Source: Stenotrophomonas beteli (GTDB lineage Bacteria; Pseudomonadota; Gammaproteobacteria; Xanthomonadales; Xanthomonadaceae). From it: 64,000 nt of DNA. Position 1 is the first letter of the stretch, and every line of letters starts with the position of its first letter. The notes below the pieces were generated by a model, which was not told where the DNA came from, made no database searches, and saw nothing but the letters and a program-made list of their open reading frames with translations. The position numbers and the translations under genes are program-made. This document shows, in pieces, positions 7,360 to 40,410 of the stretch. The stretch is taken from the NCBI RefSeq assembly GCF_001431665.1, contig NZ_LLXV01000024.1:1-64000 (forward strand). The letters are read 5' to 3'.

Positions 7360-8485
7360 ATGATCGAATTGAATCCTGTCCGCCAGCGCATCACCGATCT
7401 GACCGATCGCGTGCTGTCGCTCCGGGGGTATCTTTGACTACGACGCCAAGAAAGAGCGTCTTGAGGAAGTAACGCGGGAGCTGGAAAGCCCCGACGTCTG
7501 GAACAACGCCGAGTACGCGCAGAACCTGGGGCGCGAGCGCTCGAGCCTGGAGAAGACCGTGGGCGGCATCGCCTCGGTGCTCGACGGCCTGACCGATGCG
7601 ACCGAGCTGCTGGAGCTGGCCGAGTCCGAGCAGGACGAAGAAACCGCGCTGGCGGTGGTCGCCGACCTGGACAAGCACCAGGCGCACGTGGAGAAGCTGG
7701 AGTTCCAGCGCATGTTCTCCGGTGAGATGGACAACGCCGCGGCCTTCGTCGACATCCAGGCCGGTGCCGGTGGTACCGAAGCCCAGGACTGGGCCGAAAT
7801 CCTGCTGCGCATGTACCTGCGCTGGTGCGAGTCGCGCGGCTGGAAGACCGAACTGATGGAAGTGTCCGGTGGCGACGTCGCCGGCATCAAGTCGGCCACG
7901 CTGCGCGTGGAGGGCGATTACGCCTACGGCTGGCTGAAGACCGAGACCGGCGTGCACCGCCTGGTGCGCAAGTCGCCGTTCGACTCGGACAACCGCCGCC
8001 ACACCAGCTTCACCTCGGTATTCGTGTCGCCGGAAATCGATGACAACATCGATATCACCATCAACCCGGCCGACCTGCGCACCGACGTGTACCGTTCCTC
8101 CGGTGCCGGTGGCCAGCACGTGAACAAGACCGAGTCGGCGGTGCGTATCACCCACATCCCGACCAACATCGTTGTGGCCTGCCAGACCGGCCGCAGCCAG
8201 CACCAGAACCGCGACAACGCGATGAAGATGCTGGCCGCCAAGCTGTACGAGCTGGAGATCCAGAAGCGCAACGCCGAAAAGGACGCGGTGGAAGCCACCA
8301 AGTCGGACATCGGCTGGGGCAGCCAGATCCGCAACTACGTGCTGGACCAGAGCCGTATCAAGGACCTGCGCACCGGCATCGAACGTTCGGACACGCAGAA
8401 GGTGCTCGACGGCGACCTGGACGAGTTCGTCGAGGCCAGCCTGAAGGCGGGCCTGGCCGTCGGCTCCAAGCGCCTCGATGCCTGA
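7360..8485 (+). CDS. prfB: Peptide chain release factor 2 (programmed +1 frameshift)
   Basis: RF2 recognises UGA and UAA stops and triggers peptide release on the ribosome. The gene is read in two frames. ATG at 7360 gives 25 codons ([10 protein letters not shown] to LSLRGYL) ending at an in-frame TGA at 7435-7437; a +1 shift on CTT then continues with GAC TAC GAC through to 8485, giving 374 residues. The hallmarks are present: the SPF stop-recognition tripeptide ([11 protein letters not shown]) and GGQ ([12 protein letters not shown]). A standard gene caller that ignores the shift would miss or truncate the N-terminus. lysS follows several genes downstream, as in xanthomonads. Confidence 0.97.
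7421..7440 (+). promoter_or_regulatory. prfB: RF2 autoregulatory +1 frameshift site
   Basis: CGGGGGTATCTTTGAC holds the internal Shine-Dalgarno-like G-run, the CTT slip codon, the poor UGA C stop context and the same 26th-codon position as in E. coli prfB. Low RF2 slows termination at UGA and favours the shift, a feedback loop known from E. coli; its action here is inferred from the conserved site. Confidence 0.95.
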
Positions 8486-8547: not shown

Positions 8548-8551
8548 TTCT

Positions 8552-8616
8552 GTAGAGCCGAGCCATGCTTGGCTGCCTTTTGCGGGTAGCAGATCCGTCG
8601 AGCATGGCTCGACGCT
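8552..8616. repeat. SMAG palindromes, two copies
   Basis: GTAGAGCCGAGCCATGCTTGGC begins at 8552. A second GTAG at 8586 is followed by GTCGAGCATGGCTCGAC. They sit between prfB and the MmyB-type regulator gene. Confidence 0.7.
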
Positions 8617-8625
8617 AAGACACGT

Positions 8626-9420
8626 ATGGCGGTAGCGATGATGCGCAGCGAAAGTGAACGCAAGGAACTGGGGGGCTTCCTCAAGGCCTGCCGCGCCCGT
8701 GTCGATCCGGCCACGCTCGGCCTGCCAGCCGGGCGTCGGCGCACCCCGGGCCTGAAGCGCGAAGAAGTCGCGCTGGCCATCGGCGTCAGCGTCAGCTGGT
8801 ACACCTGGATCGAGCAGGGCCGTGAAGTGCGTGCCTCGCCCGAGGTGCTTGAGCGCCTGGCGCAGGTACTGCGCATGAGCGACGACGAACGCGCCTATGC
8901 ATTCGCGCTGTCCGGCTACGGCGTGCCGCTGGAGTCACCGGACGAAAGCGTGACCGACGGCCTGCGCCAGCTGGTGGAGGCGATGCAGCCGATTCCGGCG
9001 TACGTGCGCAACACCCGTTTCGACATCCTGGCCTGGAACCCGGCCATCGCCGAGCTGTTCGTGGACTACAGCCAGCTGGCGCCGCATGAGCGCAACACGC
9101 TGCGGCTGATGTTCCTGTACCCGCCGTACCGCAGCTTGATCCTCAACTGGGAAGAAATGACCCGCGGGCTGCTGGCTGGTTTCCGCGCGGCGATGGCGCA
9201 GGCGCCGGACAAGGCGCCGTTCCTGGCGCTGGCCGAGGACATTGCCGCGCACAGCGAGGAATTCCGCCAGTGGTGGCCGGAGCACGACGTGCGTCGCTTT
9301 GACGAGGGTGCGAAGAAGTTGAACCACCCCACGCGCGGGTTGCTGGACCTGCAGTACGTGGCGCTGGTGCCGGAGAGCCGGCACGATCTTTCCCTGGTGA
9401 CTTACCTTCCGCGTAGGTAG
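8626..9420 (+). CDS. XRE-family regulator with MmyB-like ligand domain
   Basis: A 264-residue regulator. Residues ~10-85 are a helix-turn-helix of the XRE type (RRTPGLKREEVALAIGVSVSWYTWIEQGR), and the rest matches the MmyB-like ligand-binding domain (NTRFDILAWNPAIAELF; LNHPTRGLLDLQYVAL), thought to bind small ligands such as fatty acids. These regulators usually sit next to the dehydrogenase or reductase gene they control. The next gene on this strand is an aldehyde dehydrogenase, but a 0.6-kb repeat island separates them. The start is uncertain: ATGs at 8626, 8638 and 8641 are all in frame, with no clear ribosome site. Confidence 0.85.
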   Translation: MAVAMMRSESERKELGGFLKACRARVDPATLGLPAGRRRTPGLKREEVALAIGVSVSWYTWIEQGREVRASPEVLERLAQVLRMSDDERAYAFALSGYGVPLESPDESVTDGLRQLVEAMQPIPAYVRNTRFDILAWNPAIAELFVDYSQLAPHERNTLRLMFLYPPYRSLILNWEEMTRGLLAGFRAAMAQAPDKAPFLALAEDIAAHSEEFRQWWPEHDVRRFDEGAKKLNHPTRGLLDLQYVALVPESRHDLSLVTYLPRR

Positions 9421-9503
9421 GTTGGTCGGCAGGGCTGCGCCCTGCACCCGCAGAGGCTTCAAGCCAAGGCAACAGCAACAGCAACAGCGAGCATCCTTGG
9501 GAT

Positions 9504-9584
9504 GGCGGGGCGGTGTGGGCTGGTAGGACACGCCGTAAACCCATCCATGGCGCCAACGTTCCTGCCAACCCACACCGCCCCGCC
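9504..9584. repeat. Long variable-arm hairpin, copy 1
   Basis: Two 25-nt arms (9504-9528 and 9560-9584) are complementary at about 23 positions and enclose a short loop with CGCCGTAAACCCATCC. The loop is a shortened version of that in copies 2 and 3. Confidence 0.7.
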
Positions 9585-9659
9585 TCAGGCAGATTTCGCG
9601 CGACTGCTGGTAGGTGTCGACCTTGGTCGACACATCTGTCAGATATTGAAAGAAATTCG

Positions 9660-9700
9660 GGGGTCAGATCCGTTTTCCTACGGAAAACGGATCTGACCCC
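9660..9700. repeat. GGGTCAGATCC palindrome, copy 1
   Basis: The 19-nt arm GGGGTCAGATCCGTTTTCC and its perfect inverse flank a 3-nt loop. Related copies lie at 13236, 40025, 40110, 40197, 44124, 45101 and 47660. Confidence 0.85.
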
Positions 9701-9736
9701 AAGAGTATTTCCGACAGATCGCAGAAAACCGTGGAA

Positions 9737-9838
9737 GGCGGGGTGGGTCCGGTTGCGGGAGTGTCCGCGGCATGGATGCCGCGGCCAAGCCCCCAAGGAC
9801 GGGTTTACGGCGTCTCCCGCAACCGGACCCATCCCGCC
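9737..9838. repeat. Long variable-arm hairpin, copy 2
   Basis: 25-nt arms (9737-9761 and 9814-9838) are complementary at 24 positions. The 52-nt loop contains the inner palindrome CCGCGGCATGGATGCCGCGG and, read on the minus strand, GCCGTAAACCCGTCC, as in copy 3. Confidence 0.75.
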
Positions 9839-10047
9839 TACGTACAGGGAATCCGCTTTTGCTTCGGCTGTTGATGTTGTCTTGGCTTGAAGCGGGTGCA
9901 GGGCGCAGCCCTGCCAAGAGCCCCCAATTCAGGCAGGTAAGTACAGGTCACAGGATAAACAGACGCCTTGTTGCCTTCATCAAACGGGTCCACATTCCTG
10001 TGCAGGAGACGGGCCACCGCCCGTCGTCGAGACACCAGGAGCCCTGC

Positions 10048-11433
10048 ATGTCCGCTGCCCTCAGCACTGCCATTTCGCGCGATCCGGCCACCGGTAAACA
10101 GATCGCCAGCCATCCTTTCGCCACCGACGCCGAACTGGAAACCATCCTCGACCGCGGTCAGGCCGGCTTCGCGGCCTGGAGCGCCAAGAGCCTCGAACAG
10201 CGCGCGGATGTACTGCGCACGATGGCGGGCGTACTGCGCCGCGACCGAGAGAAACTCGCCGCGCTGGCTACCGCCGAGATGGGCAAGGTCCAGGCCGAAG
10301 CGCTGGCCGAGATCGAGAAGTGCGCCATGCTGTGCGACTGGTACGCCGACCACGGCGCGCAGTTCCTGCGCGACGAGCCGACCCAGGTGCCCGACGACAA
10401 GGCCTACGTGTCCTACCTGCCGCTGGGCGTGGTGCTGGGCATCATGCCGTGGAACTTCCCGTACTGGCAGGTGATGCGTGCGGCGGTGCCGATCCTGATG
10501 GGCGGCAACGGCTTCCTGCTGAAGCCGGCCGAGAACATTGTCGGTACCGCGCTGCTGCTCGATGCCGCCTGGCGTGATGCCGGCTTGCCGGAGGGCGCCT
10601 TCATCGCCGCCAACATCAGCCGTGAGGGCACCAGCCGCGCGATTGCCGATGACCGCATCGCGGCGGTGACCCTGACCGGCAGCGTGGCCGCCGGCCGCAG
10701 CATCGCCGCCCAGGCCGGGCAGGCGCTGAAGAAGGTGGTGCTGGAGCTGGGGGGATCGGATCCGTTCATCGTGCTGGCCGATGCCGATCTCGATGCCGCG
10801 GTCGATGCGGCCGTGGCCTCGCGCTTCCAGAACACCGGGCAGGTCTGCATCGCCGGCAAGCGCATCATCGTGGAGGAGGCGGTCTACGACCGGTTCGTGG
10901 CGCAGTTCTGCCAGAAGGTGCAGGCACTGGCCATCGGCGACGGCCGCGACCCAGGCAACCGCATCGGCCCGATGGCACGCCAGGACCTGCTTGAACAGCT
11001 CGACGCGCAGGTGCGCGCGTCGGTGGACGCCGGTGCGCAGCTGCTGGTGGGCGGCCATCAGCTGGATCGGCCAGGCGCGTTCTATGCGCCCACCGTGCTG
11101 GCCGGGGTGGATCCGGGCATGCAGGCCTTCGACACCGAAACCTTCGGTCCGGTGGCCTCGATCAGCCGCGCCCGCGACGCCGACCATGCGGTGGAACTGG
11201 CCAACCAGAGCGAGTTCGGCCTCAGCGGCAACCTGTGGACCGGCGACCGCGCCCGCGCGATGCAGCTGGCGCGCCGGCTGCAGACCGGCGGTGTGTTCGT
11301 CAACGGCTTCTCCGCCTCCGACCCGCGCGTACCGATCGGTGGCGTGAAGAAGAGCGGCTTCGGTCGCGAACTCTCGCACTTCGGCATCCGCGAATTCGTC
11401 AACGCGCAGACGGTCTGGTTCGACAAGCGTTGA
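10048..11433 (+). CDS. sad: NAD(P)-dependent succinate-semialdehyde dehydrogenase (Sad/YneI-like)
   Basis: A 461-residue aldehyde dehydrogenase; E. coli Sad (YneI) has 462. It should oxidise succinate semialdehyde to succinate with NAD(P)+. Visible motifs are MPWNFPYWQ (cofactor cleft), VLELGGSDPF with the catalytic-base glutamate, FQNTGQVCIAGKR with the nucleophilic cysteine, and FGPVASI near the C-terminus. The start at 10048 has an AGGAG-like ribosome site and fits the family length; the longer in-frame ORF would run into the palindrome island. It lies 63 bp upstream of an acetolactate-synthase-like gene on the same strand, suggesting a two-gene operon. Family assignment is strong; the exact aldehyde is inferred. 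Confidence 0.8.
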   Translation: MSAALSTAISRDPATGKQIASHPFATDAELETILDRGQAGFAAWSAKSLEQRADVLRTMAGVLRRDREKLAALATAEMGKVQAEALAEIEKCAMLCDWYADHGAQFLRDEPTQVPDDKAYVSYLPLGVVLGIMPWNFPYWQVMRAAVPILMGGNGFLLKPAENIVGTALLLDAAWRDAGLPEGAFIAANISREGTSRAIADDRIAAVTLTGSVAAGRSIAAQAGQALKKVVLELGGSDPFIVLADADLDAAVDAAVASRFQNTGQVCIAGKRIIVEEAVYDRFVAQFCQKVQALAIGDGRDPGNRIGPMARQDLLEQLDAQVRASVDAGAQLLVGGHQLDRPGAFYAPTVLAGVDPGMQAFDTETFGPVASISRARDADHAVELANQSEFGLSGNLWTGDRARAMQLARRLQTGGVFVNGFSASDPRVPIGGVKKSGFGRELSHFGIREFVNAQTVWFDKR

Positions 11434-39866: not shown

Positions 39867-39970
39867 GCCGGGCCAGGATGGGTTGGCGGGGGACGCCGTA
39901 AACCCGTCCCTGGGGGCTTGGCCGCGGCATCCATGCCGCGGACACCCCCGCCAACCCACCCTGGCCCGGC
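39867..39970. repeat. Long variable-arm hairpin, copy 3
   Basis: 26-nt arms (39867-39892 and 39945-39970) pair at 25 positions. The 52-nt loop carries GACGCCGTAAACCCGTCC and CCGCGGCATCCATGCCGCGG and is almost identical to the inverted loop of copy 2, while the arms differ. Confidence 0.8.
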
Positions 39971-40024
39971 CCATTCGATATCCTGGCGTCGGACGGCAAG
40001 AGCGTTGGTTTCCAAGTGGAAAGA

Positions 40025-40237
40025 GGGGTCAGATCCGTTTTCCTGTGGAAAACGGATCCGACCCCGGAAGCACGGCGGACGGCGAGCACTGGGTTTCCAA
40101 GTGGAAAGAAGGGTCAGATCCGTTTTCCTGCGGAAAACGGATCCGACCCCGGAAGCACGGCGGACGGCAAGAGCACTGGGTTTCCAAGTGGAAAGAGGGG
40201 TCAGATCCGTTTTCCTTTGGAAAACGGATCTGACCCC
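40025..40237. repeat. Three tandem units with GGGTCAGATCC palindromes (copies 3-5)
   Basis: Palindromes at 40025-40065, 40110-40150 and 40197-40237 are each preceded by TTTCCAAGTGGAAAGA and followed by GGAAGCACGGCGGACGG or a variant, giving a period of 85-87 bp. Loops differ (TGT, TGC, TTT). Confidence 0.85.
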
Positions 40238-40306
40238 GGAAGCAACCCGGCTTCTGCTTTTTGTTCTTTTTCTTCAATCCGGGGTGGGACAACGGGAACT
40301 GTCCGT

Positions 40307-40410
40307 GGCCGGGAGGGTGGGTTGCGCAGGGGCGTAAGCGCCATGGATGGCGCGACCGAGCCTACAAGGACGTATTCACGGCGGCTCCTGCGCAACCCAC
40401 CCTTCCGGCC
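40307..40410. repeat. Long variable-arm hairpin, copy 4
   Basis: 24-nt arms (40307-40330 and 40387-40410) pair at 23 positions. The loop, read on the minus strand, has GCCGTGAATACGTCCTTGTA and GCGCCATCCATGGCGC, a diverged version of the loops in copies 2 and 3. Confidence 0.75.

Follow-up and report, generated by a model that had tools for sequence, protein, structure and literature searches.

Between two co-directional genes of Stenotrophomonas beteli (NCBI RefSeq assembly GCF_001431665.1, contig NZ_LLXV01000024.1) lies half a kilobase of DNA in which palindromes are nested within palindromes. The question raised by this locus is whether such an arrangement is a fortuitous pile of repeats or an ordered element and, if the latter, whether its parts work as DNA or as RNA. 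Positions given below are those of the window, which is the whole stretch of DNA analysed, the first 64,000 nucleotides of the contig. A sequence-only reading had described three levels of inverted repeat sharing nearly one centre, with a core whose flanks are partly mirrored, and an inverted-repeat search recovered them all. The outer arms pair over 24 nt at 100% (9428-9451/9892-9915) and over 36 nt at 83% (9447-9482/9867-9902), the long hairpins over 25 nt at 92% (9504-9528/9560-9584) and 26 nt at 96% (9736-9761/9814-9839), the core over 19 nt at 100% around a loop of 3 nt (9660-9678/9682-9700) and the flanks of the core at 85% (9634-9646/9707-9719). The two long hairpins also match each other in part, in inverted orientation (9526-9550/9793-9817, 88%). 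The whole begins a few nucleotides past the stop codon (9418-9420) of the upstream gene. When the 498-base composite was folded it proved far more stable than shuffled sequences on both strands, with z = -19.2 for the + strand as DNA and z = -18.4 for the - strand as RNA, and in each case 0 of 100 shuffles was as good. Chance nesting is ruled out by this shuffle-tested folding together with the genome-wide recurrence described below.

Table 1. Modules of the composite and the neighbouring genes, in window positions
Feature	Position	Strand	Basis
Whole composite, order A - B - S - D - B' - A'	9423-9920	.	repeat search
Left outer arm A: hairpin GGCAGGGCTGCGCCCTGC and CAACAGC-type repeat	9428-9487	+	inverted-repeat search, stop-codon survey
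Left B unit, deletion form with one small loop remaining	9504-9584	+	inverted repeats, unit comparison
S: GTAG-type REP GTAGGTGTCGACCTTGGTCGACAC	9610-9633	+	sequence; REP definition given in PMC2817692
Partly mirrored flanks of the core (9634-9646 and 9707-9719)	9634-9719	.	inverted repeats
D: 41-bp core palindrome	9660-9700	.	inverted repeats, genome scan
Right B unit (B'), intact three-way-junction hairpin; GGA strand is the window + strand	9737-9838	-	
hp2 hexaloop ATGGAT of right B, predicted CsrA/RsmA site	9772-9777	+	
hp1 hexaloop AAGGAC of right B, predicted CsrA/RsmA site	9795-9800	+	
Right outer arm A'	9866-9915	-	inverted-repeat search
Upstream gene, by appearance presumably a helix-turn-helix (HTH) regulator	8626-9420	+	
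Downstream gene, by appearance presumably an aldehyde dehydrogenase (start codon chosen by hand within a longer frame)	10048-11433	+	

The answer proposed here is that the region is a copy of a mosaic repeat and that its B hairpins are, at somewhat better than even odds, an RNA-level module with twin sites predicted to bind CsrA/RsmA, forming a dispersed sink or platform. That the composite exists and recurs is secure, and the CsrA reading that we infer from the sequences is a specific and testable one.

The genome searched is a 4.48-Mb draft in 109 contigs, and BLAST of the 498 bases against it yielded 146 matches, six places besides the window matching over at least 390 bases. Thirty-eight loci were fetched and mapped, many of them cut by contig ends or holding some modules only, and wherever several modules could be recognised they followed one common order, with A pointing inward at both ends. 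Exact A motifs numbered 61 when both strands were counted (two spots gave a match on each), D palindromes occurred at 36 places with no more than 3 mismatches and B heads numbered 33 plus 36 with no more than 2, the reversed-pattern controls giving 0 in all three cases. Numerous contig ends fall inside copies of the composite (L010, L017, L023, L028, L029 and others), so the palindromes probably break assembly and the copy counts for this draft are probably low. Among the matches listed, Stenotrophomonas maltophilia and its allies carry the same type of composite. The window itself holds a second one at 39867-40409, with B at 39867-39970 (+), B' at 40308-40409 (-) and, between them at about 40025-40237, three D palindromes (86-bp tandem).

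Four orthologous sites were followed through 61 genomes of the genus, searched for each site, the counts including the window's own genome. At site 1, that of the composite in Table 1, the HTH gene was matched in 39 of the 61 genomes and both flanks in 26 of the best 30 loci; 0 of the 26 was empty, the flanks lay 336-803 bp apart, and the loci differed in B stems, REPs and D. One of them (L067, 350 bp) contained no A, B, S or D by module scan, yet its letters start with an A-like arm. At sites 2, 3 and 4 the flanks were resolved in 25, 26 and 28 of the best 30 loci each, of which 20, 23 and 24 had recognised modules and 5, 3 and 2 had none; at site 4 another two loci had one small A-like hairpin only. 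The gaps at module-lacking sites ranged from 13 to 369 bp, and one of the lacking loci at site 2 (L125) depends on a flank match that is incomplete. Two convergent genes meet at site 4, their stop codons standing about 10 nt apart in two species (by eye; gap 13) and several hundred bp apart in most other species. The composite has thus been gained or lost between species and its parts have been exchanged in place. The earlier view of an ordered composite is borne out, its order repeating both within the genome and at the four orthologous sites of sister species, and related genomes carry the components not just separately or at random but as a whole arrangement whose interior modules are exchanged, with occupied and module-lacking states both present at sites 2 to 4. 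The idea that the element spreads as a unit survives in part: occupancy of the sites differs between species, but parts are exchanged singly, B, D and the REPs are found outside the composite as well, and no target-site duplication was seen by eye at site 4, the one site read closely. Of the criteria for a MITE, inverted outer arms and module-lacking sites are therefore present and target duplication (site 4) was not seen. Two further observations come from one genome (G011). Its locus at site 4 (L180) extends over about 1.36 kb and contains numerous alternating REPs, most relatives having about 0.5 kb there, and at its site 1 (L072) a stretch resembling the final 255 bases of the HTH gene (88% to that of the window) recurs about 700 bp downstream, adjoining an A-like arm.

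The modules differ in kind. Only S has the GTAG or GTGG tag beside a short palindrome by which REPs are defined in PMC2817692, a tag that B, D and A lack. The sequence of S is absent from those rows of the Stenotrophomonas REP table in PMC2817692 with which it was compared, and other REPs of the composites (Sb, Sc and Sd) match entries of that table. Another GTAG hairpin, resembling Smal1 of the same table, lies just upstream of the HTH gene at window 8551-8624. The genome has four Y1_Tnp genes, one flanked by D-like palindromes and the other three with GTAG hairpins nearby. The first of these (L077:1212-1922, a 216-codon frame) has D-like near copies, without a GTAG tag, at both ends, and D is therefore probably the palindrome of that transposase; the final codons of the frame are read from the D-like palindrome itself. 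No B lies beside any of the four genes, except for one head-like match with 5 mismatches near L080. A consists of a short palindrome followed by CAACAGC-like repeats.

The B hairpin has an outer stem of about 25 bp around a three-way junction with two small hairpins, hp1 and hp2. This structure rests on an alignment of 59 of 104 B units, mainly of one length class and with locus L046 removed, in which 97.8% of 2275 pair cells were paired, against 79.8% after shuffling, and 24 of 40 pairs changed on both sides. Changed cells in the stems were two-sided in 405 cases and one-sided in 10, no slid register coming close, though the covariation counts are not independent events because the units share ancestry. 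A junction pair, GGCT[C/T]G...AC[G/A], covaries likewise: of 86 units, 44 have C-G, 40 have T-A and 2 are exceptions. The stems vary freely and are almost perfectly paired whilst the head is conserved: for 17 units outside the Xanthomonadaceae, taken from 20 named loci, mean arm identity was 0.42 and head identity 0.79. Of the two B units in the composite the left is a shortened copy of the element seen on the right (81 against 102 nt), 23 nt shorter than its 104-nt relatives; it has lost one loop, the right unit keeping both, and the missing 23 nt were apparently lost between two copies of ATCCATGG.

Among the matches listed, B occurs in Stenotrophomonas, Xanthomonas, Marinobacter, Microbulbifer, Methylotuvimicrobium, Pseudidiomarina, Marinobacterium and others. 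A scan of 398 genomes of the phylum found it in 25, from 14 genera and 11 families, all of them in the window's class (Gammaproteobacteria); 0 genomes outside the class had it, and the reversed-pattern control also gave 0. Nothing in the window matched Rfam 15 at the gathering cut-off and, in eight named loci with B, nothing but a tRNA was found at E <= 0.001, so B as a known RNA family was rejected, the matches being sub-threshold only. The miRNA and C4 matches, both sub-threshold, seem to be driven by the stem; the left B matches the C4 antisense RNA (RF01695) weakly, at 27.6 bits against a cut-off of 45, but its aligned letters are almost all in the outer stem. No published description of a B-like element was found in the portions of the literature searched.

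Whether B folds as DNA or as RNA can be approached through its mismatches, since in an unbiased DNA palindrome G.T and A.C should have the same frequency on either strand. On the GGA strand of B, G.U outnumbers A.C by 127 to 27 in total over four groups (45:16, 22:3, 30:1 and 30:7) that sum to 238 units, 232 of them distinct, and by 89:11 when each distinct arm is counted once. The stem-based sets of the analysis kept units with arm scores of at least 13, 13 and 9, the last for a set from other families, in which 25 of 60 stretches gave no unit under the filter and the 40 units retained had a ratio of 42:5 (36:5 once per arm). Both members of 51 head-to-head pairs are biased (20:9 and 18:4). 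GTAG REPs of the same loci served as a control and had no bias, at 21:24 in 3068 cells. This excess of wobble on the GGA strand, with unbiased REPs beside it, favours folding of B as RNA from one strand, and a mutational bias of the non-template strand, as an alternative cause, would also imply that the strand is transcribed. The earlier suggestion of a structured RNA thus holds for the B hairpins, given their strand-biased wobble and conserved loops, but not for the whole 0.5 kb. An initial assessment of wobble, based on 63 of the 104 units, had suggested maintenance of B by a DNA-only process, since wobble was rare; the units behind it had been selected with G.T scored as a pair, and the strand bias emerged when both mismatches were scored alike. 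G.U makes up about 2-4% of B pairs, which is low for an RNA family and speaks against the RNA reading.

The loops suggest what such an RNA might bind. A high-affinity CsrA/RsmE site is described in PMC4005645, in the sections consulted, as a hexaloop ANGGAX, variable at N and X, that sits immediately on a stem, AGGGA and AAGGA pentaloops also being bound, and the sections of PMC7652899 consulted give a SELEX consensus RUACARGGAUGU with AC and GU paired, and a single dimer bridging two sites 10-63 nt apart with an optimum above 18. The hp1 hexaloop is A-N-GGA-X in 123 of 129 units, with all four bases at N and a varying X; these units, all from the window's genus and thus related, came from loci not fetched by the B pattern, and loops of 5-7 nt of any sequence were allowed. 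On the folding strand the closing pairs of hp1 are UAC/GUA, CCC/GGG, UCC/GGA, CAC/GUG, CUC/GAG or UAU/AUA, the TAC-type being UAC-ANGGAX-GUA. The loop of hp2, which the search pattern left unspecified, contains GGA in 85 of 86 units of the named genomes and in 38 of the 40 units of other families, even though the hp2 stems change completely, and its settings include AUGGAU, AAGGAU, AGGGAU, ACGGAU, AGGAC and AGGGA. In the other-family set the two hp2 loops without GGA are CAAAGATG and CAGAGATG, and one hp1 loop is AAGGTT. The GGAs of the two loops are separated by 19-21 nt in 36 of 37 units and by 28 nt in one, the remaining 3 of the 40 having lost a GGA; spacing was measured from the hp2 loop, since a third GGA before hp1 otherwise gives 8 nt in 14 of 38 units and 20-21 nt in 24 of 38. 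B therefore has both the A(N)GGA(X) loops on hairpins and the spacing of 10-63 nt of a CsrA/RsmA target. In predicted folds of the first 120 of the 232 distinct units and of the 40 units of other families, two GGAs had an unpaired probability above 0.7 in 65 and 21 units respectively, only about half of each set, which fits the CsrA reading poorly, and at least one GGA in 112 and in all 40. CsrA is common in Gammaproteobacteria, and the presence of a CsrA gene in the window's genome and in 24 of the 24 genomes with B that were tested is for that reason weak support. The link between CsrA and B was a post hoc observation, and the conserved letters of the head beyond the loops (AGCC...UUYACGGCGU) exceed, on the UUYACGGCGU side, what CsrA needs.

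The mechanism that would follow may be set out briefly. The region is one copy of a mosaic intergenic repeat, with B and B' as inverted copies of a gammaproteobacterial three-way-junction element. Where the GGA strand is transcribed B would fold and its two small hairpins would each display an A-N-GGA-X hexaloop, at a distance of some 20 nt that a single CsrA/RsmA dimer could span. With the two B units standing head-to-head in the composite, transcription through it from either side would give one B in binding form, and the tens of B copies may act as a dispersed CsrA/RsmA sink or as local binding platforms. The centre contains the REP and D, palindromes that go with Y1 transposases and are probably moved by those enzymes, and the outer A arms often abut stop codons. 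For the class as a whole it is proposed more tentatively, at rather less than even odds, that Gammaproteobacteria carry RNA modules with twin CsrA/RsmA-binding sites, dispersed, partly mobile and numbering as many as tens per genome, with the pairs of the Xanthomonadaceae serving as a genome-wide RsmA sink. In that family B comes mostly in head-to-head pairs, of which transcription from either side would expose one B, and the sink could supply decoy capacity where few classical Rsm small RNAs are known.

The pairing of B units is also what might be expected if B were a single-stranded DNA hairpin for an HUH-type transposase or recombinase and the composite a non-autonomous mobile element with B subterminal, a reading that we regard as unlikely but the most durable of the alternatives. 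Among units with a measurable stem, 51 of 53 neighbours less than 450 bp apart are head-to-head; by heads alone the figure is 54 of 69, with 6 the same way round and 9 back-to-back, the latter chiefly where one tandem Xanthomonas pair adjoins the next. Most such neighbours come from Stenotrophomonas and Xanthomonas, inverted pairs being known from several genera, and 58 of 119 loci scanned had no second head. Mobility would also agree with the transposase-associated palindromes S and D, with the occurrence of occupied and lacking sites, and with a frequency of G.U far below that of an RNA gene. Against this, no transposase was found between the B units in 15 pair regions inspected, and a wider pair (L297) encloses an ordinary gene; no target duplication was seen; the GTAG REPs, for which the published mobilisers (RAYTs) are transposases acting on single strands, are unbiased (21:24), unlike B; and the free N and X beside a fixed A and GGA would be left without a reason. 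In Xanthomonas hortorum (L230:2513-3304) three B pairs stand in tandem with a period of about 303 bp, the first made up of a TAC-type and a CCC-type head.

The near-perfection of the stems needs an explanation whichever reading is preferred. As they are almost purely Watson-Crick, we infer that template switching, which can create such compensatory changes according to the part of PMC8794818 consulted, or gene conversion is probably also at work in keeping them perfect. Carried further, this becomes the view that the composite is a functionless, selfish REP/BIME-like mosaic in which template switching between arms and gene conversion between copies do everything, and it would account for the great excess of two-sided over one-sided changes (405 against 10 cells) and for the swapping of modules between species at one site. 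It is nevertheless doubtful, and a little more so than the DNA-hairpin reading, as a neutral process fails to explain a loop A and GGA that stay fixed across families whilst the stems change, and leaves the strand-specific wobble unexplained unless it acts through transcription.

Less probable again is a role as a bidirectional transcript end, in which stable hairpins after stop codons would stop transcription or protect mRNA 3' ends. Such a role is suggested by the arms, 25 of 47 examined having their end no more than 11 nt from the stop codon of a long open frame that looks coding, and by site 4, where both convergent genes abut the composite in this genome and two species have a small hairpin only. 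There is, however, no T-run after the hairpins of the window (by eye), the conserved loops would go unexplained, and B units of other families are not bound to one gene orientation: relative to the GGA strand, the flanking genes of 33 of the 40 units were both opposite in 13 cases, convergent in 10, both with the strand in 6 and divergent in 4, as scored with a crude gene picker after dropping 7 units spanned by an ORF, which does not support a simple 3'UTR role and also speaks against the CsrA reading of B. An origin in phages or plasmids was rejected, the composite being unmatched in phages and one B unit unmatched in plasmids (near relatives possibly excluded). Two contigs of a viral collection gave matches (L303 and L304), the former with a partial Stenotrophomonas-type composite at 7400-7960 made up of a B head without its left stem, REPs, B' and an A' arm.

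The composite is of a known general kind, and B is a structured element of many gammaproteobacterial families without an Rfam match at cut-off. Like the REPs, BIMEs and REPINs that accompany RAYTs (the 'SMAG' repeats of Stenotrophomonas), the composite is dispersed, intergenic, palindromic and mosaic, its S is a GTAG REP and palindromes like its D flank a Y1 transposase gene. Unlike them, B is about 100 nt long and has a three-way junction, a conserved head and free stems but no GTAG/GTGG tag, it was found in 11 families, and its wobble is strand-biased whereas REPs of the same loci are unbiased. With the CsrA/RsmA-binding decoy RNAs CsrB/C and RsmX/Y/Z, B shares several A(N)GGA hairpin loops on one strand, but it differs in having two loops on one three-way junction under a long stem that is nearly perfect, in reaching tens of copies in some genomes and in lacking an Rfam match at cut-off. 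Closer to hand is RsmU of Xanthomonas, also in the Xanthomonadaceae, which the part of PMC7694677 consulted describes as an RsmA-sequestering RNA derived from a 3' untranslated region and reports from no genus but Xanthomonas; B, by contrast, is multi-copy and was found in many families, the two being compared by description only. GTAG elements inside long palindromes have been described in A. variabilis and others in a section of PMC3733652, but those palindromes are different ones, and neither a Stenotrophomonas case nor a head like that of B is described there.

Should B indeed bind CsrA/RsmA, repeats that spread and disappear during genome evolution would titrate a global regulator of Gammaproteobacteria, and repeat content would be tied to regulation. 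Regardless of CsrA, B is a structured element of 11 families that falls below every Rfam cut-off, and the contrast between biased B and unbiased REPs suggests a sequence-only way of separating RNA-level from DNA-level palindromes. One genome (G180) has nine CsrA-family matches and 19 B heads.
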